64,000 bases of DNA, from NCBI GenBank assembly GCA_950295325.1, contig OX485804.1, positions 9,362,001 to 9,426,000 on the forward strand, read 5' to 3'. Made by a program: the position numbers and the translations under genes. Within the stretch, counting starts at the first letter, position 1. Each line of letters starts with the position of its first letter. The stretch comes from Polytrichum commune. Taxonomy: Eukaryota > Streptophyta > Polytrichopsida > Polytrichales > Polytrichaceae. Shown piece after piece: positions 6,128-64,000 of this stretch. Below the pieces are notes generated by a model. It ran no database searches. It had not been told where the DNA came from and saw only the letters and a program-made list of their open reading frames with translations.

Positions 6128-6776
6128 ACCACATGAGCTGCTAGAATAACAACTACGTAAGATTTATGGACAACATAGGGTTATATGAGTTGAGATTGAT
6201 GGTGGCACATATTGACAAAATGGCCAAACCAAAGCAAAACCTATTGAGTTAAAATCAGCCTTAAGGTCCTTCCACACCTGCGGTGGTAGGCCATGTTAGC
6301 ATGCCAAAATTTATAGTAAATTTATTCTGTATTCACATTACAAGTGGTATGAAACACTATGCAGACATGGAATCCGAGTTGGACAAGCGATGGTTGCAAT
6401 ATAAAATGTGTAACTCCGCAGTTAACGCAATTTCAGAGATTTTTATTAAATCTTCAAAATTCCTAGATTTAAGAGAAATCAGCGAGGTGTTACGTAAAGC
6501 ACCTCCTTCCCCCCCCCGTTACATCATTTGGGCGCAAAAGTGACCTCGCACTTGCTTCTGTTTTTGGACTGCTCTATTGTTTCTTGTTCTTGCTTAAAAA
6601 AAAGTAGCTCCAGTGTTCTTGAACCTTTGCAAATTGAATCTTTCTACTCACTAGTATGTGATTTTTCTGTTGCTACTCCTGTGAATCTTTGTTTCTTGCG
6701 GCTTTATTGCTACAACAAAAAAATCATTACAACAAATTTTCTATCCTAAAAGAGAGTTTGCTTTGCACAAATCTCA

Positions 6777-6953
6777 ATGGACTATGATAGTGATTCATTG
6801 ACGGATTCCAACGCTCGCCGATACGATGACAATCCTTCCGTTGCTGAATCTCTTGCTCGTGAAGCCAGTGCCGCACTTTTTGGAGCATATGCTGCAAACA
6901 CCAATGACGGTACGATTGCAAGTCCATTTCCATTGTTGTTTCAAGTTTCATGA
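6777..6953 (+). CDS. Short frame, possible first exon of an unknown gene
   Basis: An ATG at 6777 opens a 58-codon frame starting MDYDSDSLTDSNARRYDDNP, followed by an alanine-rich helix-like stretch (REASAALFGAYAA). Its composition is more protein-like than other short frames nearby. A possible GT donor lies at 6910, which would end exon 1 inside TNDG; otherwise the frame stops at 6951-6953. The pyrimidine-rich leader 6540-6660 would suit a plant 5' UTR. No matching second exon was found before the minus-strand SR45-like locus begins at about 7,290, so this may be an orphan or truncated first exon. Function unknown. Confidence 0.35.
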   Translation: MDYDSDSLTDSNARRYDDNPSVAESLAREASAALFGAYAANTNDGTIASPFPLLFQVS

Positions 6954-7290
6954 CGAATATAAATAAATTGATCAAAGAAATTAAACAAGTTCTTGAATTA
7001 ATACTTTTTGGTTTAAGTAATATCTCTTGTTGTCAATTCTTTGCTTCAGTTTTGGAAGACTCTTCTCTAAAGAAATAGTTCTTGAAATCTTGACACTATG
7101 CAGACCTTGCTAGACAATCCATCACAACACACCAAAGAGTAAGACCTGAAAAAGTTTGCCTGGAAACAAGAATACATGTTCCATAAAGCAGGAAAAGAAT
7201 GAATAGAGCTAGCATGAATAGGATGAATAATAACTGATCATACAGCAGCTACAGTACACAATCTCCAGCCACATGTATTTTAAGTGAGCC

Positions 7291-12280: not shown

Positions 12281-12604
12281 CTCATCACTTGAGTCCCCGT
12301 CTCTTTCAACTCCTTCTCACTTGAATGCATATATCCTCGAATTTGCTCACATCATGTTTGCTCCCCCTCAATTTCGTTCCGAGACTTGTCGTTGTCTTCT
12401 CAGCAAGGCCTCTTGGCTGCTTCGCATTGGAATGACCCCTCACCCAAAACTTGTCCTTTCGGTGTGTTGTTGTGATAGGATCCTGAGAGATGATGAGGTA
12501 AGAGTGGTAGAGACACAATTCCTTACATGCCACAGATTTTTTTTCTTTTTCTCTTGGTTGAACGGCTTGTTGCTTGAGCTTCAGAGGCGATGGAGTATGA
12601 GGGA

Positions 12605-12752
12605 CTGATCACACGGACTAGTTCAAACACCATCCGTCCGCATCTCCGGCTGCAATAATGTGAAAACTGGTGGGCTAGCATATGTTTTCACAACATAATT
12701 TCAACAATTTCACGGCTGGAATCGGATGAAAATTTTGGCATGATCGGGCCAT
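12605..12752 (-). mobile_element. Family B small foldback element, single reversed copy
   Basis: Runs from TGATCACAC to TGATCGGGCC. It is the reverse complement of the 154-bp unit arrayed at 34244-35167, sharing the CCGGCTGCAATAATGTGAAA and ACAATTTCACGGCTGG blocks. The ends are complementary (GATCACAC...), so the unit behaves like a tiny MITE. Confidence 0.75.
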
Positions 12753-16544: not shown

Positions 16545-16740
16545 CCACCTGCAATCTAGTTGGAGACATCTGTTTCGAAGGTCCAGTTCGGTAAGGTGAT
16601 CCACCTGCGATCCAGTTGGTGACATTTGTTTCGGAGGTCCAGGGTGAAGGTCCACTTCGGAGGTCCAGTTCGGTGCGGCGATCCACTGCGATCCAGTTGG
16701 AGACATTTGTTTCGGAGGTCCAGGGTGAATTTCTAGCGTG
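16545..16740. repeat. Minisatellite, about 60-bp units, inside the hAT element
   Basis: Units built from GATCCACCTGCGATCCAGTT, GGAGACATTTGTTTCGGAGG and TCCAGGGTGAA repeat about three times with partial copies between. The array ends in two 13-bp copies of GTGAATTTCTAGC. It directly precedes the transposase remnant. Confidence 0.85.
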
Positions 16741-17174
16741 AATTTCTAGCTTTCAAACTACAAGCCACCACTGAATGGGGAGATAAGACTTGTGGAGATT
16801 TATGGGGCATGATCACATGGAATCATTCTTTGCAAACCCGATATCCTAATTTGCTTGTCCTTGCTGATTTGGCTAGAGTACAATGTGTATCAACATCCAC
16901 TTGTGAAAGGGCGTTTAGTGTTCAAAATTTGATAAAAACACGAGTGAGAAACAGACTTGGAAGTAAAAATTTGGAAGCTATGCTTAGAATTGCTTTAGAG
17001 GGACCAGATGAAAACTTTGATAATATTATTGAAGAGGCAATTCCTTTGTGGAAAACTGGAACCAAATACCGGTTTTTATATGCTAATCCTTCACGTTATG
17101 TGTCTTCTGCAAGTGATGCATCTTGTTCAGTAAGTTCAACTATGTTTTCTAATTCTGAGGATACGGATGTTTAA
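16737..17174 (+). pseudogene. hAT transposase C-terminal fragment (dimerisation region)
   Basis: The frame is open from 16737; the first ATG is at 16809 and the stop is the TAA at 17172-17174. About 25 residues before the ATG (FKLQATTEWGDKTCGDLWG) still look like protein. The core VSTSTCERAFS...IKTRVRNRL is the hAT C-terminal dimerisation signature, whose family pattern is S..ER.FS.....K...RN.L. The part after NLEAMLRIALEGPDENFDNI is acidic and then low-complexity (SSASDASCSVSSTMFSNS). The RNase-H-like catalytic core and N-terminal zinc finger are missing; a minisatellite sits where they should be. The best relatives are likely the ZNF862/TTF-type hAT proteins common in plants and animals (inference). 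The fragment cannot catalyse transposition. Confidence 0.85.
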
Positions 17175-18793: not shown

Positions 18794-20286
18794 ATACCGT
18801 ACGTTAAGGGCAGCTTCGGCGCTCTCTTGCCGAATAATTATTAAAAGTTAAAAAACAGTGTCCGGCGGCAAAAAAAAAATTACTAAAAATTTCGGCATTC
18901 TAAATAGTTTAATAATGCAATTTCGGCATACATCCAAGAAGTTATTATCTAACAGTAAACAAGGATGTTCATTCACGATTTCACAATTTGTGTGAAGAGT
19001 TTTACAAAAGATATAAATCTTTCACAATTTTGTGAAGAGTTGAGAATGCTCTGTGCTTTATACAAGTAGAGTGGAGTTGTGTTCAACAATGCATATGGGA
19101 TATGTAAAGTTTGAGGTGAAGAGTCTTCAAATGACATAAAATTTGTTGGAGGTGAAAGATTACTTGATTTCTAAACTTTTCTTAGAGCAACAAAATTCCA
19201 AAAAGTTGATCTTCTATGCACAAATGAGCTCCGAAAAACTGTTATGAACGCATTTTAATTTTTTGATCTTTACACAGCTGCAATGTTTTGTCCATATCTT
19301 TTGCATAAAGACTTATTTTGACACAAAACTTGTTGGAGGTGGAAGATTACTTGATTTCTAAACTTTTCTTAGAGCAACAAAATTCCAAAAATGTTGATCT
19401 TCTATGCACAAATGAGCTCCGAAAAACTGTTATGAACGCATTTTAATTTTTTGATCTTTACACGGCTGCAATGTTTTCTCCATATCTTTTGCATAAAGAC
19501 TTATTTTGACACAAAACTTGTTGGGGGTGGAAGATTACTTGATTTCTCAACTTTTGTTAGTTGGACAAAATTCTATAAAACTTCATCTTCTATGCACAAA
19601 TGAGCTCCGAAAAACTGTTATGAACGCATTTTAATTTTTTGATCTTTACACGGCTGCAATGTTTTCTCCATATCTTTCGCATAAAGACTTATTTTGACAC
19701 AAAACTTGTTGGAGGTGGAAGATTACTTGATTTCTAAACTTTTCTTAGAGCAATAAATTTCCAAAAAAGTTGATCTTCTATGCACAAATGAGCTCCGAAA
19801 AACTGTTATGAACGCATTTTAATTTTTTGATCTTTACACAGCTGCAATGTTTTGTCCATATCTTTTGCATAAAGACTTATTTTGACACAAAACTTGTTGG
19901 GGGTGGAAGATTACTTGATTTCTCAACTTTTGTTAGTTGGACAAAATTCTATAAAACTTCATCTTCTATGCTCAATTGGACTCCAAAAAATTGTGTACAA
20001 CACATTTGAAAAGCCTCACTTAGAGTCTTGCTACTTCTTAACCCATATTCTTTGTGGACTAATGTAAGTGAGCTTGATTACAAAAGGAGCACCTTCTCTC
20101 CTTCAGAGTTCATATATGCTTCCAGTGTAAGTAAAATTCTAGTGAGAAGTAAAAATTTCTTACTTTTCGGCAATTTTGAAAATTAATTAATTTTATATTC
20201 GGCAAAAAATGTCAATAATTTTCTAAAATTTTCGGCGTCTATTTTTAGAATTATTTTGTGCCGAAGCTGCCCTTAACGTACGGTAT
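18794..20286. mobile_element. 1.5-kb element with perfect 27-bp TIRs
   Basis: 18794-18820 and 20260-20286 are perfect reverse complements; the arm begins ATACCGTACGTTAAGGGCAG and ends CTTCGGC. TTCGGCA-type motifs recur within about 130 bases of each end (at least four on the left, three on the right), as expected of transposase-binding sites. The centre is a 188-bp tandem array with no transposase. The outer 10 bases plus TTAA are self-complementary across the element, so the exact boundary and TSD are ambiguous. TTAA (piggyBac style) with a 13-bp GGGCAGCTTCGGC TIR is one reading; a 27-bp TIR with TA or no clear TSD is another. Confidence 0.85.
19140..19990. repeat. 188-bp tandem repeat inside the TIR element, about five units
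   Basis: The block GCTGCAATGTTTT starts at 19277, 19465, 19653 and 19841, an exact 188-base period. Units share TTGACACAAAACTTGTTGG and ATGAGCTCCGAAAAACTGTT. A variable block comes in two types: AGAGCAACAAAATTCC (A) and GTTGGACAAAATTC (B). The order of units is A-A-B-A-B. Unit spacing shows no length drift. Confidence 0.9.
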
Positions 20287-21165: not shown

Positions 21166-21552
21166 TAGCATATAAGGGATCACGTGTCGATGTCGGATGG
21201 ATACGAGAGGTACGCTTTGTATGCGATTGTTAATTCCCTCTCTTCCAAAATGCTGAGGTGTGTCTTTTTGCCAGTGCGTCACGAAGCAGGTGTGTTAAAC
21301 ATTAACATATATGCTTGGCCTGTGGCTAGCTAGGGCGGCCCGGTTTGGTGAAGAGGGGGACCACAGAAACCGACCAGAAGGCCAAGGGTCCTTAATTTAA
21401 TACCCACAAACACTTGGGGAGCATTGAGGTTCAGGCATTGTCTGCCTGCTTCTTGCATAGCCCCAACAGACCAGCGAGCGAGGCCTCACAGAATCCGCTT
21501 GCTGGGAGTGGCGATGTGTCTGTCGGAGGTCGTGTGTGTGTGGCAAAATCAT

Positions 21553-21706
21553 GCCCCGATCACACCAACCTCTCCATGCGCTTCCCACCGTGTAATTGCG
21601 GGGGATTATGTTGAGAAGTAGATGTTGTTGGCCCACCATTTTTCGCACTACTACAGCCGTAGATGCCGAAGGGTGGTGTCTGGACTAGCCGGTGTGATCA
21701 GCCCCC
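21553..21706 (+). mobile_element. Family B foldback element, single forward copy
   Basis: Starts GCCCCGATCACACC and ends GGTGTGATCAGCCCC. It shares the GGGGATTATGTTGAGAAGTA and TTGGCCCACCA blocks with the 34-kb array. Terminal GATCACACC / GGTGTGATC are inverted. Confidence 0.8.
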
Positions 21707-23430: not shown

Positions 23431-24596
23431 CATATATGTGTTTGATATGTAAAGGTGAAAGAGTTGGAAGGGTAGAGTATAACCCTAATTAGTGATTATT
23501 GAGATTTTATGGGCAAATACTTTGATGAACTCACCCTTAAATTGGTAGATGAGTTTAGAGGTTTTCATAATGATAACATGCAGGGCTACTCTTTTAGAGC
23601 ACATATCACCTAAGTTAGTTGGTGCTAAAATTAATGGTCCACCCAAAATCAACAACCTAAAATATTGCACAATTAATACATATTGATTATGATAATGTGC
23701 ACCACCTTAATATTAGGATACCGTATTGATTTTGGATCATCTACCCATAAAACTTTGAAACCCAATAAATTTTGCATATGGAAGTCACATAAAACATACC
23801 TCGGTGCATTGGAATCCCTTGTCAATTTTTCATTGTAATCATTTAACGAATTGCAATATAATAGTATTCAATATACTTGCTCAACAATCAAAGTGGTTGC
23901 TTATCTCCAAAAAGAAAAGAAAAAATAACGCCCGTATTTTCACACGAGCATGACTGCGAGCCCGTTGGCCTCATACTAATCACGGGGTTCCACTTGCTTA
24001 TCTCCACATATCTTCGTTGCAAAGGCTACACATTATTTTGATACTTTGGTGACATTTGATGCACTCCAATACCGTAGAAGCCCTCTACTTCATCTTTACT
24101 AGTGCCACATTGTAATTTTCACATAGGGTTTAAGAGGTTTGTTCACATAATTGAGAGCCCTTCAAAACACTCTTTTTCATTGTTGACACGCAAAGAGGTG
24201 GGTATTAATTTGTGCTCCACACTTGAAACATTCTAGTTACTACATCTACCATAACATCACTCAGTCGATGACTTGTGTTTGTAGGCCTGGTATGTAGTAG
24301 ACTCAAGAAAAGAAAATATGGATGCCGAAATCTCACTACAACCAGACTGAATATGAAGCAAGGGCAACTGAATACAAATTATCAATGGAGTAATGTTATG
24401 ACACTTGTTAGTGCCTTCTTCATCATGTTATAAAAAACTTACTTCTAATTAGTGTCGGGTCATTATTGTAAAACCATGGTCTATAAGATCTACAAATCTT
24501 ACATTTACAATGTAAGTTCTTTCTACCACCATGAGATTGGATTCCACTAAATGCCTCGTCTACCAAAATTGCATGGAATGATGCACCCAGCACTAA
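23431..24596. other. Intergenic, nothing recognised
   Basis: Short frames only, such as 23485-23670 and 24423-24644 on the minus strand, without motifs. Confidence 0.35.
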
Positions 24597-33008: not shown

Positions 33009-33754
33009 CTACACCGTTTGTGATATTTAGCATCACATGCATAATAAATTCACTTACCCTATTTTGAGGTGTATGCTAGGTCACACTAATGATCAACAAC
33101 TTCACCATTAGTGTCAACTCATGACACTTGGCGATCATGAATATCTTGACATGAGTATGTTCAATAATGTTATGATTAAAGTTTTATCTCACAATGGTCT
33201 ACAAAGTTGACTAAAGTAAGCACAAATGGCACATGGCATCAATGTGCTCAAAAGTATCTTCCTCTTGCATACTAAATGTAAGCACATGCACACTTGCCAT
33301 TAGTATGCTCAATAACATTTGCCCATTGCATACTACAACGCAAATCTAACATCTCAAGTATCCCAATGTGCTACTCTAAATTGGAGGGAATTATTGTATA
33401 TGAATGTACCTCTCATCCATCAACATAAAAACTTGACCCTAAAGGTTTGTTGCCAATTCTTCTTAATGACCTCAAGAAGAGTATCTCGGGGTCTTTATAG
33501 CCAATTCCGCTGTAAAATCAACCTAAAAAATAAGCTCTACACAACATACTTGTTTTACAACTTTTATATTAGATGATTGAGAGGTACACTCATATACAAT
33601 AATTCCCTCTCTCCATCTAAGTGTCATAATGTAAGTACATTTTCACTTGAAAAAGTTACTTGTGTTGACAATTAGTAGCATTGAAACCTCTAGGCATCTA
33701 GTTTAGGCTAATTGCAAATAGTATATGTGACATCAAATACCATGAACGTTGTAG
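33009..33754 (+). mobile_element. Family F TIR element, 746 bp
   Basis: The left end CTACACCGTTTGTGATATTT and reversed right end CTACAACGTTCATGGTATTT form an imperfect TIR of about 28 bp ending TCAC. TA lies outside both ends, possibly a TA duplication, but other copies do not confirm it. The inside has no transposase. Confidence 0.75.
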
Positions 33755-34013
33755 TATGGTAAATTAAGCACCATTTAGTGGCCATGGATCTGTGTTTCAC
33801 CTACGTGATCCTTCTAGTGTTTGGATTTGCTAATCATCATCTTGCATTAATCACGTGTTTCATATACTAAGAGAACTGGACTAATCAGAAAGAGGATAAA
33901 ACACAATGTGAGACCCATGTACGTTATTGTGAGTCATGTGTAGTGGACGCCCGGGGACTCGGCATTACTTATTTACTTATCCACTTTGATCTCACAGACA
34001 AGGAGCCAACCAA

Positions 34014-34168
34014 GGGGTTGATCACACCAGCCACTTCTAGCCCCATTTGTAAGCATCTCCGACTGTAATAGTGTGAAAAGTGGTGGGCAAACACCTATTT
34101 CTCAACATAATCCTCCAACAATTTCATAATTAAAATTGGATGGAAAGTTTGGTGTGATTGGGGCATGA
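34014..34168 (-). mobile_element. Family B unit in inverted orientation beside the array
   Basis: Reverse complement of the 154-bp unit, from TTGATCACACCAGCC to TTTGGTGTGATTGGGGC, about 75 bp before the forward array starts. Together with the array it forms an inverted arrangement. Confidence 0.8.
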
Positions 34169-34243
34169 AGGCTTTGATGTGTATGTAATAAGTTATGTGG
34201 AGATGCCCTTCCCCCAGCCAACTTGAGTCTCGCAGAGGTTCAT

Positions 34244-35167
34244 GCCCCAATCACACCAAACTTTCTATCCAGATCTAGCCGTGAAATTGTTGGGGATCAT
34301 GTTGAGAAATTGATGTTGACGCACCACTTTTCACATTATTACAACCGGAGATGTTGACAGATGATGCCATAAGTGGCCGATGTGATCAACCCCTCAGGCC
34401 CCAATCACACCAAACTTTATGTCTGGATCTGGCCATGAAATTGTTGGGGATTATGTTGAGGAATAGATGTTGGCCCACCACTTTTCACACTAATATAGTC
34501 GGAGATGTTGTCGGATGGTGCCATAAGTGGCCAGTGTGATCAGCCCCTCATGCCCTGATCACACCAAACTTTCCGTTTGGTTCCAATTGTGAAATTGTTG
34601 GGGATTGTGTTGAGGAAAGGATGTTGGCCCACCACTTTTCACACTATTACAGTCGGAGATGTTGTCGGATGGTGCCACAAGTGGCTACTGTGATCAACCC
34701 CTCAGGCCCCGATCACACCAAACTTTCCGTCTGGTGTTGACCGTGAAATGGTTGGGGATTATGTTGAGGAATAGATGTTGGCCCACCGTTTTTCACATTA
34801 TTACAACCGGAGATGCTGACAGACGGTGCCACAAGTGACCGGTGTGATCAACCCCTCAGGCCCCAATCACACCAAACTTTCCGTCTGGATCTTACCGTGA
34901 AATTGTTGGGGATTATGTTGAGGAATAGATGTTGGCCCACCGTTTTTCACATTATTACAACCGGAGATGCTGATAGACGGTGCCACAAGTGACCGGTGTG
35001 ATCAACCCCTCAGGCCCCGATCACACCAAACTTTCCATCTGGTGTTGACCGTGAAATGGTTGAGGATTATGTTGAGGAATAGATGTTGGCCCACCAGTTC
35101 CCACCCTACTGCAGCCGAAAATGTTGTCGGATGGTGCCATAAGTGGCCAGTGTGATCAGCCCCTCAG
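34244..35167 (+). repeat. Tandem array of six 154-bp family B foldback units
   Basis: The unit start GCCCC(A/G)ATCACACC occurs at 34244, 34398, 34552 (as GCCCTGATC), 34706, 34860 and 35014: spacing is exactly 154 every time. Units share TTGGGGATTATGTTGAGGAA, TAGATGTTGGCCCACC and GGTGTGATCAACCCCTCAGG. They differ by substitutions only. Two short frames (34351-34539 and 34967-35155) are shadows of the repeat. Confidence 0.93.
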
Positions 35168-38880: not shown

Positions 38881-39711
38881 TTTGTGTAAGTGAATCATTT
38901 GATATGTCCATCCAAGCTGAACTTACTTTGGTTTGAAAATCTATAGTATCTATATCTAGATTTGTATATACAACCTCTTATATGATTATTTCACTTGCAT
39001 ATAAGGAGTTAATTCAAAATCCACATTTTTAGGATGCAATTAAAGTCCTTGGTCAGAACCACACATGCAAGTTTCCTTGCATGTGGCTCATTCGTGATAA
39101 CTTCTTCAGGTTTGCATCCTATTCAATTTGTGGGAATGTGAGTACAAAAATCCCTGCCATAGTTTGTCAAGTCCATGATACCCCTCGGGATAGGAGCCCA
39201 ACAATCAAATTGGGTATATTAACCTGGTAACCACCCACATTCAATGTTTGAGGTTTCGATGATCTAGTGTTCTAGATTTGAGCACAAACCTTTGTGAAGA
39301 AGTCTGTAAGAGAATTTTATATTATAGTGATGACAATGATTGGAAGAATTTGACCAAACCATCTCTTACCAAGAAAAATGACAAAACCCTTCATTATGAA
39401 TTTCGATAATAAAAGCAAGGTGGGAGCCCAGTAAGAGTGGAATTTGATGTCCACCACCAAATAACATTTATGGTCATTTGACAATGATTTTGATCTACAT
39501 GATCTATGAATAACAAAGCTCACATTAGCATGTTCATGCACATTCAATTTTAGGAACCAAATTTCTTAAGAAAAGAATGATGCATTATAGTGATGACAAT
39601 GATGGGAGGAATTTGACAAATAGAATGTATGTTGGGGAATACATTGTGGATCAGTTTTAAGCACCAAAGGTACCTTAAAAAACCCATGAAATTTTCACAT
39701 GCATTGCCTTG

Positions 39712-51879: not shown

Positions 51880-54595
51880 CTCTCATTCCTCGCGCATGGG
51901 CCCATATGAATGTCCCATCACGAAATTTTCTCCTCGTGTCTGGGCATAAGGTAGATGGGTCGTCGCTCGAAGCGCTGAGCATAGGTACTATTATACGATT
52001 ACGAAGTCCTTGTTGGGATTTGAGAAGGGATTCCAACGCACCCAAACATGCTTTCTTTGAATTCCGTATGCAAAAGTTATAAGGGTTTAGATTATTATCG
52101 GTACATGAACCAAAACCAACACATGAGTTGGTGTTAAGGTGGTGGACATTCTTATCATTCCTCATGCGCGACAACCATCCCAATTTCAACCATATGAATG
52201 TCCCATCACGGAATTTTCTGCTCATGTCTGGGCACATTCTGTAAGGTAGATGGCGTGTCACTTGAAGCGCTGAACATAGGTACTATTATACGATTAGAAA
52301 GTCCTTGTTGGGATTTGACAAGGGATTCCAACGCACCCAAACATGCTTTCTTTGAATTCCGTATGCAAAAGTTATAAGGGTTTAGATTATTATCGGTACA
52401 TGAACCAAAACCAACACATTAGTTGGTGTTAAGGTGGTGGGCATTCTTATCATTCCTCATGCGCGACCACCATCCCAGTTTCAACCATATGAATGTCCCA
52501 TCACGGAATTTTCTGCTCATGTCTGGGCACACTCTGTAAGGTAGATGGCGTGTCACTTGAAGCGCTGAGCATAGGTACTATTATACGATTAGAAAGTCCT
52601 TGTTGGGATTTGACAAGGGATTTCAACGCACCCAAACATGCTTTCTTTGAATTTCGTATGCAAAAGTTATAAGGGTTTAGATTATTATCGATACATGAAC
52701 CAAAACCAACACATGAGTTGGTGTTAAGGTGGTGGGCATTTTTGTCATTCCTCATGCGCAATCACCATCCCAGTTTCAACCATATGAATGTCCCATCACG
52801 GAATTTTCTGCTCACGTCTGGGCACACTCTGTAAGGTAGATGGTGTGTCACTTGAAGCGGTGAGCATAGGTACTATTATACGATTAGAAAGTCCTTGTTG
52901 GGATTTGACAAGGGATTTCAACGCACCCATACATGCTTTTTTTGAATTCCGTATGCAAAAGTTATAAGGGTTTAGATTATTATCGATACATGAACCAAAA
53001 CCAACACATGAGTTGGTGTTAAGGTGGTGGACATTCTTATCATTCCTCATGCGTGACAACCATCCCAGTTTCAACCATATGAATGTCCCGTCACAAAATT
53101 TTCTGCTCGGGTCTGGGCACACTCTATAAGGTAGATGGTGTGTCACTTGAAGCGGTGAGCATAGGTACTATTATACAATTACAAAGTCCTTGTTGGGATT
53201 TGACAAGAGGTTTCAACGCACCCAAACATGCTTTCTTTGAATTCCATATGCAAAAGTTATAGGGGTTTAGATTATTATTGGTACATGAACCAAAACCAAC
53301 ACCTCGGGGGGGGGGGGGGGCAGTGTGTTAAAAAGTTAAGGATATAGGTGCGAACAACCACTATTTTATAGGGGGGTATTACTTTCAATTCTTTTTTTTT
53401 TTTCACATGCTATCATTATGTAAATTTCTACTTTGGGTTAATAGAAAAATGGCTTGCATTACTTATAATTCCAAATTACCTATTATTCCATACCCTATAG
53501 TACTTTAAAGATGTCCAGTGCCATTTTTGATACCCTATATTACTCTTAAGTCCATTTATAATTTTTAGCCCCCATGTTTTTAAAATACCCTATCATTTGT
53601 TCGCACGTATATTGCTACTCCAACCAATGACTACCCCCCCCCCCGAGACCAACACATGAGTTGGTGTTAAGGTGGTGGGCATTCTTATCATTCCTCATGC
53701 GCGACCACCATCCCAGTTACAACCATATGAATGTCCCATCACGGAATTTTCTGCTCATGTCTGGGCACACTCTGTAAGGTAGATGGTGTGTCACTTGAAG
53801 CGCTGAGCATAGGTACTATTATATGATTACAAAGTCCTTGTTGGGATTTGACAAGGGATTTCAACGCACCCAAACATGCTTTCTTTTAATTATTATATGC
53901 AAAAGTTATAGGGGTTTAGATTATTATCGGTACATGAACCAAAACCAACACATGAGTTGGTGTTAAGGTGGTGGACATTCTTATCAGTCCTCATGCGCAA
54001 CAACCATCCCAGTTACAACCATATGAATGTCCCATCACGGAATTCTTTGCTCATGTTTGGGCACACTCTGTAAGGTAGATGGTGTGTCACTTGAAGCGCT
54101 GAGCATAGGTACTATTATATGATTACAAAGTCCTTGTTGGGATTTGACAAGGGATTTCAACGCACCCAAACATGCTTTCTTTTAATTATTATATGCAAAA
54201 GTTATAGGGGTTTAGATTATTATCGGTACATGAACCAAAACCAACATAGGAATTGGTGTTAAGGTGGTAGACATTCTTAGCATTGCTCATGCGCGACCAC
54301 CATCCCAGTTACAACTTGATGCATGGGCCCATATGAATGTCCCATCACAAATTTTTTTGCTCATGTTTGGGCACACTCCATAAGGTAGATGGTGCGTCAC
54401 TTGAAATGCTAAGCACATGTACTTTTCTTACGATTAGAAAGTTCTTGTTAGGATTTGACAAGGTATTCCAACACGCCAAAATATGTCTTCTTTGATTTCC
54501 GTATGCAAAAGCTATGAGGGTTTAAATTTTCATTGGTACGTGAACCAAAACGAACACGTGAGTTGGTGTTAAGGTGGCGGACATTCTTAGTATCA
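51880..54595. repeat. Satellite-like array, eight units of about 295 bp
   Basis: The block CATATGAATGTCCCATCAC starts at 51903, 52191, 52486, 52781, 53076, 53724, 54020 and 54330 (the last as CCATATG). Spacing is 288, 295, 295, 295, 648 (unit with insertion), 296 and 310. Shared blocks include AGTCCTTGTTGGGATTTGA and AACGCACCCAAACATGCTTT. The first and last units are the most diverged and both carry GCATGGGCCC before the start block. 295 is not a multiple of three, so the minus frames of 86-151 codons are repeat shadows. Confidence 0.95.
53295..53655. mobile_element. 345-bp element inserted in a satellite unit, 8-bp TSD
   Basis: The element is 53303-53647. It begins CTC followed by a long G run and ends in a long C run followed by GAG, so the TIR is CTCGGGGGGGGG. 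ACCAACAC is duplicated at both sides (53295-53302 and 53648-53655); the uninterrupted units carry this octamer once. Subterminal TGCGAACAA occurs in both arms. The interior is AT-rich and non-coding. The TSD length suggests hAT-like or a related superfamily. Confidence 0.92.
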
Positions 54596-63540: not shown

Positions 63541-64000
63541 TCCTTGAGATATAAATAACTTGGTAGTATAGATGTACAACACCCTAAAACCTTGCATAAT
63601 AAGTACATATTGATTGTAAGAATCGTGTCCATCACCTTAACATGTGGTTCATGTGTTGGTTTTTAGGCTATCCACCAATAGAGCTTTAAACCCCTATAAC
63701 TTTTGCCAATGGAGATCAAATAAGGGACGTTTTACACCTAGAGGCCATGCCAATTCCCCTTGAGGCCGGTTGCATGAAATTTCAGCCCCTTTTGGGTTGC
63801 AGACTGGCCTTAACTACACATTATAATAAGACTATAATGGGGGCCAATTTTCCCATATGTAAAGGCCTTAGGGCCAAGAATCTAGGCTGTATCAATAAAT
63901 CTAGCATAATCCAACGGATCTAGCATAATCTAGCATAGAGCCGTTTAGATTTCCACATAATCCAATGGATATGGTTCGCTAAAAAATCATATTTTATTAA
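63541..64000. other. Intergenic, with short local repeats
   Basis: TCTAGCATAATCCAACGGAT-type units occur about three times near 63898-63970. No gene. Confidence 0.5.

Follow-up and report, generated by a model that had tools for sequence, protein, structure and literature searches.

MITEs in tandem, and the passage from MITE to satellite, have both been described before. In the coral Acropora, full-sized CMITEs, which are related to piggyBac-like transposons, form tandem arrays, for which the authors favour replication slippage over independent transposition (PMC2872659; this and the other published systems are described here as they appear in the available excerpts of the papers). A review lists MITE-to-satellite transitions for rye, Xenopus and others, including D1100 (rye) and miDNA4 (Xenopus), tandem repeats that have a MITE source and show homogenisation (PMC9659126). 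Tandem repetition also occurs inside larger elements. In Tetris of Drosophila virilis, tandem units of ~220 bp (TIR-220) make up inverted arms within the TIRs of a larger element with 8–9 bp target-site duplications (TSDs), and array size has changed by unit duplication (PMC4079207); in MtPH-A6-4 of Medicago, 60-bp tandem repeats lie within a PIF/Harbinger element on one or both sides, opposed in orientation when on both (PMC2213677). Tourist-like MITEs (PIF/Harbinger) are short and non-coding, with a duplication 3 bp in length (PMC2213677, PMC2836001, PMC11560428), and their usual target is TTA/TAA (PMC2213677, PMC11560428).

Here we describe a locus in a 64-kb stretch of Polytrichum commune DNA (hereafter the window), which is probably a small multimer in which full-length copies of a non-autonomous MITE-like element stand in tandem, accompanied by a separate inverted copy, in repeat-dense DNA. 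The array is ordinary in kind: it looks like an early-satellite-type MITE multimer such as has already been described. Like the Acropora arrays it consists of full-sized MITEs in tandem, although the element here has a 3-bp TCA site and imperfect TIRs. Like D1100 and miDNA4 it combines a MITE source with homogenisation, but those are satellites and there are only six units here. No enclosing element of the Tetris sort was found, and whereas the repeats of MtPH-A6-4 are parts of an element, the unit here is the element itself.

Organization of the array

A sequence-only reading of the window had placed six head-to-tail units with a 154-bp period at 34014–35167, with a reversed unit about 75 bp upstream and single units at 12605 and 21553. 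The tandem array and the reversed copy are confirmed. TRF reports the array at 34240–35167 (period 154, 6.0 copies, 86% matches, 0% indels, score 1240) and, in register from 34243, pairwise identity ranges from 0.786 to 0.955 across all 15 pairs of units. The motif that spans the head-to-tail junction (up to two mismatches) gives five matches against none in 100 shuffles, which excludes chance as the source of the arrangement. A search of the window with a nine-copy profile (nhmmer) recovers nine copies at four sites, six of these copies in the array, and no tenth family copy above the inclusion threshold. The range first given is right at its end; its start belongs to the reversed copy, the array proper beginning at 34240. 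That copy lies on the minus strand and ends 77 bp before unit 1, while position 12605 falls inside one single copy and 21553 is correct for the other to within one base (Table 1). Head-to-tail units with exchange between them make the array satellite-like; with only six units it is at most an incipient satellite-like array.

Table 1. Positions of the array, its units and the remaining copies of the element within the window
Feature	Position	Strand	Remarks
TCA, left array edge, target-site-like	34240–34242	+	The same triplet borders S1 and S2 and closes each unit
Array unit 1	34243–34396	+	151-bp element + TCA
Array unit 2	34397–34550	+	
Array unit 3	34551–34704	+	
Array unit 4	34705–34858	+	95.5% identical to unit 5; 5' part like unit 6
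Array unit 5	34859–35012	+	
Array unit 6	35013–35166	+	Mosaic; 5' part like unit 4
Reversed copy	34014–34165	-	152 bp; TCA on array-facing side, TTG on far side
Spacer, reversed copy to unit 1	34166–34242	.	77 bp, with TGA and TCA at its two ends
Single copy S1	12601–12751	-	151 bp; TCA on both sides
Single copy S2	21552–21706	+	155 bp; TCA on both sides

The unit is a complete element

Between the TCA triplets every array unit measures 151 bp, as does S1; the corresponding lengths are 155 bp for S2 and 152 bp for the reversed copy. S1, S2 and the array each have the triplet on either side; the reversed copy has it at just one edge. Each of the five internal junctions of the array carries one TCA, not two, and by eye S1, S2 and the array share no sequence beyond the TCA on either side. 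Two of 42 flank comparisons gave P<0.03 (a 14-bp block in the right flanks of the array and S2, P = 0.0025; a 9-bp block in the right flanks of S1 and S2, P = 0.02), but such matches are expected when 42 tests are made. Since the edges of the element are also the junctions of the array, with a single TCA at each, every repeat unit comprises the entire MITE-like element (~151 bp) together with one target-site-like TCA. The proposal that a MITE-like element, found also as single copies, became a head-to-tail array is supported. The single TCA at each junction resembles a shared 3-bp target-site duplication; its occurrence at every intact site would fit either a strict TCA target or a fixed terminal triplet.

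At 151–155 bp the element lies within the size range of MITEs (50–800 bp), and no stop-to-stop ORF in the array reaches 120 aa. MITEs have TIRs of 10 bp or more; here the TIRs are imperfect, 8–11 of 16 positions matching between the ends across the six units, and both ends share an inner ATCACA block. The 3-bp length of the triplet points to a Tourist-like element, which is likewise short and non-coding, but TCA stands where TTA/TAA would be usual, and for this reason we compare the element with that group and do not file it there. The imperfect TIRs set it apart as well, as does the lack of a cognate transposase among the ORFs searched (Pfam, 17 of the 68 stop-to-stop window ORFs of at least 85 aa); the one transposase match among these is a hAT C-terminal fragment ~17 kb away. 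A 20-base family pattern had no match in viral contigs and none in genome contigs; an exact pattern misses diverged copies, and in those collections no match was expected because the DNA is eukaryotic. Among the literature matches listed for end strings from the window, no title points to the element, and to judge by their titles the matches look like chance primer matches. That the element was not met in the literature searched is a weak negative, the element being nameless and most subscription papers lying outside the coverage.

Exchange between units

In-register unequal crossing-over or gene conversion leaves a mosaic pattern among units together with close likeness between some of them, as here between units 4 and 5, which differ at just 7 of 154 sites. 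Over all six units, 52 of the 154 sites are variable and 23 are informative, with a minimum of 57 substitutions; transitions make up 268 of the 355 pairwise differences inside the array, and C>T and G>A changes account for 45 of the 98 differences between units and the nine-copy majority. A PHI-like test (21 biallelic informative sites, 5000 permutations) gave an incompatibility of 0.205 among site pairs within 30 bp compared with 0.49 under permutation, a value as low being reached in none of the 5000. A rerun on the six units reached it in 1, 0 and 0 of 5000 permutations at distances of 15, 30 and 50 bp. The signal is weaker when the reversed copy is added (P = 0.089, P = 0.0034 and 0 of 5000 at the same distances), fades when all nine copies are included (P = 0.08, 0.057 and 0.021) and is absent from a set made up of units 1–4 and the three copies outside the array (P = 0.33–0.58). 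Tests for runs within single pairs are modest, the lowest of 15 uncorrected values being P = 0.0035 (units 1 and 4), 0.0085 (units 4 and 6) and 0.013 (units 2 and 6); a global run test without the pair of units 4 and 5 gave P = 0.034.

In a sliding comparison the 5' end of unit 6 shows one or two differences from unit 4 per 45-column window, and its 3' end none in 45 from unit 2 (last window checked, from column 109), while windows in the middle show 8–10 differences from the nearest copy. The units are therefore mosaics, best read as the product of in-register unequal crossing-over or gene conversion. Homogenisation, one of two ideas put forward in the sequence-only reading to account for the constant unit length, gains support from this exchange. 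In the unit-by-unit phylogeny that the same reading had called for, IQ-TREE supports inside the array are low (39–66). The array stands apart from the reversed copy with a support of 60, and array and reversed copy together stand apart from the two single copies with a support of 89.

An alternative is that six elements were inserted successively, each taking as its target the TCA that borders an earlier copy, with no recombination between them. One shared TCA per junction is in keeping with this, MITE clustering by insertion into or beside other MITEs is reported for rice (Jiang and Wessler 2001, cited in the available part of PMC5907723), and a similar element did land nearby in the other orientation, as the reversed copy shows. 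Yet in the rice clusters insertion into an element is commoner than insertion adjacent to one (PMC5907723); all six units share one orientation, although insertion could presumably go either way; identity inside the array (79–95%) is above that of the array to the two single copies (73–76%); and the mosaic signal between units is left without a source. Serial insertion is for these reasons an unlikely account of the array.

We favour a tandem multimer reshaped by recombination. The first dimer may have formed when a second copy went into the TCA bordering one already in place, or else by aberrant transposition or slippage between flanking TCAs. Growth and reshuffling by in-register unequal crossing-over or gene conversion, for which the exchange between units argues, would have followed; its traces would be the mosaic units and the recent duplication of one unit that gave units 4 and 5. 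Later substitutions, mostly transitions, would then have accumulated while in-register exchange tended to purge length variants. For the reversed copy, the simplest view is that it arose within the same subfamily, either by a separate insertion or by local duplication in inverted orientation. The array can be explained without any function, and there is no sign of a new one.

Absence of indels

As had been observed, the units differ by substitutions only: there is no indel among the six, with at least 57 substitutions. How unusual this is depends on the rate with which it is compared. Dispersed repeats of the same window served as one control (2132 mismatches and 223 gap openings in 53 alignments, which overlap and are not independent); at their rate 5.96 indels are predicted per 57 substitutions, and the probability of none is 0.0026. 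The family's own rate, from the three copies outside the array (four or five indel events with ~86 substitutions), predicts 2.7–3.3, and the probability of none is 0.04–0.07, or 0.08–0.13 conditional on the events seen. Lengths and alignment give a count of five such events, the scripted list containing two end artefacts and missing the extra C of S2. The lack of indels is accordingly suggestive, not strong; in addition, differences that are mostly transitions, with many C>T and G>A, raise the number of substitutions relative to indels.

The other long-period arrays of the window provide a further comparison, made on gapped counts (without gaps, phase shifts inflate the substitution counts of the 188- and 295-bp arrays, and those counts were left aside). 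In the 188-bp array the first unit shows 2 gap letters against each of the other three units, and in the 295-bp array 16, with none in the remaining three pairs of either array; in the 296-bp array there are 30 gap letters in two of three pairs.

Constant length despite divergence had been taken to suggest, as the other of the two ideas, a length constraint. Such a constraint at 154 bp might reflect nucleosome phasing or a centromere-like monomer, and the grass centromere satellites CentO and CentC are ~155 bp. Zero indels at the dispersed-repeat rate, and some indels between units of the 188- and 295/296-bp arrays, lend the idea a little weight. Set against it are the values of just 0.04–0.13 at the family's own rate and the lengths of the outside copies (151, 155 and 152 bp), which indicate that the element itself is not length-locked; and because in-register exchange already explains the uniform length, no constraint is needed. 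We regard it as extremely improbable.

The reversed copy and the predicted hairpin

The reversed copy is 76–82% identical to the six units (28–37 differences in 154). It differs from unit 1 at 28 positions, whereas units 1 and 6 differ at 33: being nearer to unit 1 than unit 6 is, it belongs to the same local group. That it is as close to some units as they are to others is also why the array is only weakly supported as a clade apart from it. The spacer shows no similarity to units 2 and 3 beyond that of shuffles, nor do the flanks of the array to units 2–3 or the left flank to the spacer; a resemblance between left flank and spacer that had seemed visible by eye was discarded on this ground.

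The unit had been called a foldback. The term fits poorly, since the ends are imperfect as inverted repeats and single units do not fold strongly: RNA folds of the six units on both strands gave z from +1.33 to -2.08 relative to dinucleotide shuffles. Of the three outside copies, S2 alone falls clearly lower (z = -2.75 and -2.36). The segment comprising reversed copy, spacer and unit 1 (34013–34397), on the other hand, has a predicted fold of -216.3 kcal/mol, compared with -99.2±4.8 kcal/mol for 40 shuffles, and a perfect 27-bp match between the arms. This stability is a direct consequence of the two copies forming an inverted pair. The hairpin that transcription through the junction had been expected to yield thus stands as a predicted structure, and it is possible that a transcript over 34014–34396 could feed siRNA production by way of it.

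Is the inverted pair then a selected locus, kept for siRNA or as a young miRNA? The very stable predicted fold and the perfect match between its arms are features that such a locus would have, and MITE-related miRNA genes are common in rice, yet of 39 such genes just one is tied to an inverted MITE pair more than 80% similar (available part of PMC3237417). Nor does any Rfam family reach its gathering score in the region; permissive settings give three matches, of which one is a miRNA family (MIR5020, 18.5 against a cut-off of 73, E = 1.6). Selection for a small RNA is therefore highly improbable.

The reversed copy and the array could instead be the two arms of one foldback transposon like Tetris, or of a PIF/Harbinger element like MtPH-A6-4. 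One inverted unit facing six direct units across 77 bp has the expected outline, and elements of such design have been published (available parts of PMC4079207 and PMC2213677). No enclosing 14-bp TIR (up to three mismatches) with a TSD of 3, 5, 8 or 9 bp was found within 600 bp on each side, however, and the layout is for that reason not established as a foldback element. Near the outer edges there are only three 5-bp direct matches: the first adjoins the reversed copy, with its partner 9 bp outside the array; the second starts in the last base of the array, its partner ending 5 bp before the reversed copy is reached; the third is in contact with neither. The common TSD outside both arms that marks a Tetris-type foldback is accordingly lacking, and the unit also occurs alone with its own TCA flanks. 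We hold a single foldback element to be very unlikely, and retain the tandem multimer with a separate inverted copy.

Implications

By itself the locus adds one case. It is nevertheless a clean small example of a transposon turning into a tandem repeat, since the edges of the element are the edges of the repeat, and six copies suffice to measure exchange between units. Should the host have many such arrays of varied size, a single genome could allow the stages between a lone MITE and a satellite to be put in order. A bolder scheme, to which we give a slim chance, is that of a MITE family whose strict TCA target is re-created by its own ends: copies would chain head-to-tail and then homogenise, a satellite at birth, and an inverted copy would supply a hairpin able to silence the whole family.

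Other repeats and features of the window

The sequence-only reading had ranked the arrangement as the most unusual in the window, which is arguable: 188-bp and 295/296-bp tandem arrays are also present. The 188-bp array lies at 19132–19994 (4.6 copies, 91% matches). Two neighbouring arrays with periods of 295/296 bp occupy 51902–53302 and 53648–54589, ~345 bp apart; indels set the left array's first unit and the right array's third apart from the units beside them, and diverged single copies of a part of the 295-bp unit lie at 23650–23825 and 63577–63732. Close to the locus, a dispersed repeat (33009–33755) contains an element with 52-bp inverted ends that are 83% complementary (33384–33609), and recurs near 21.8–22.2, 40.6–41.1, 48.4–49.0 and 50.9–51.4 kb.

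Three further matches concern known families. The hAT fragment is a 145-aa ORF at 16737–17174 (plus strand) matching the hAT transposase C-terminal dimerisation domain (Pfam PF05699, E = 1.5e-07), and an 81-bp tandem duplication (16574–16729) adjoins it. An ORF at 6730–7032 (minus strand) has a borderline match to the DcpS C-terminal family (Pfam PF11969; 23.7 bits, cut-off 24). A segment at 38999–39091 (minus strand) matches the Rfam group II intron (47.5 bits, cut-off 40) and is possibly a fragment of organelle origin in nuclear DNA.
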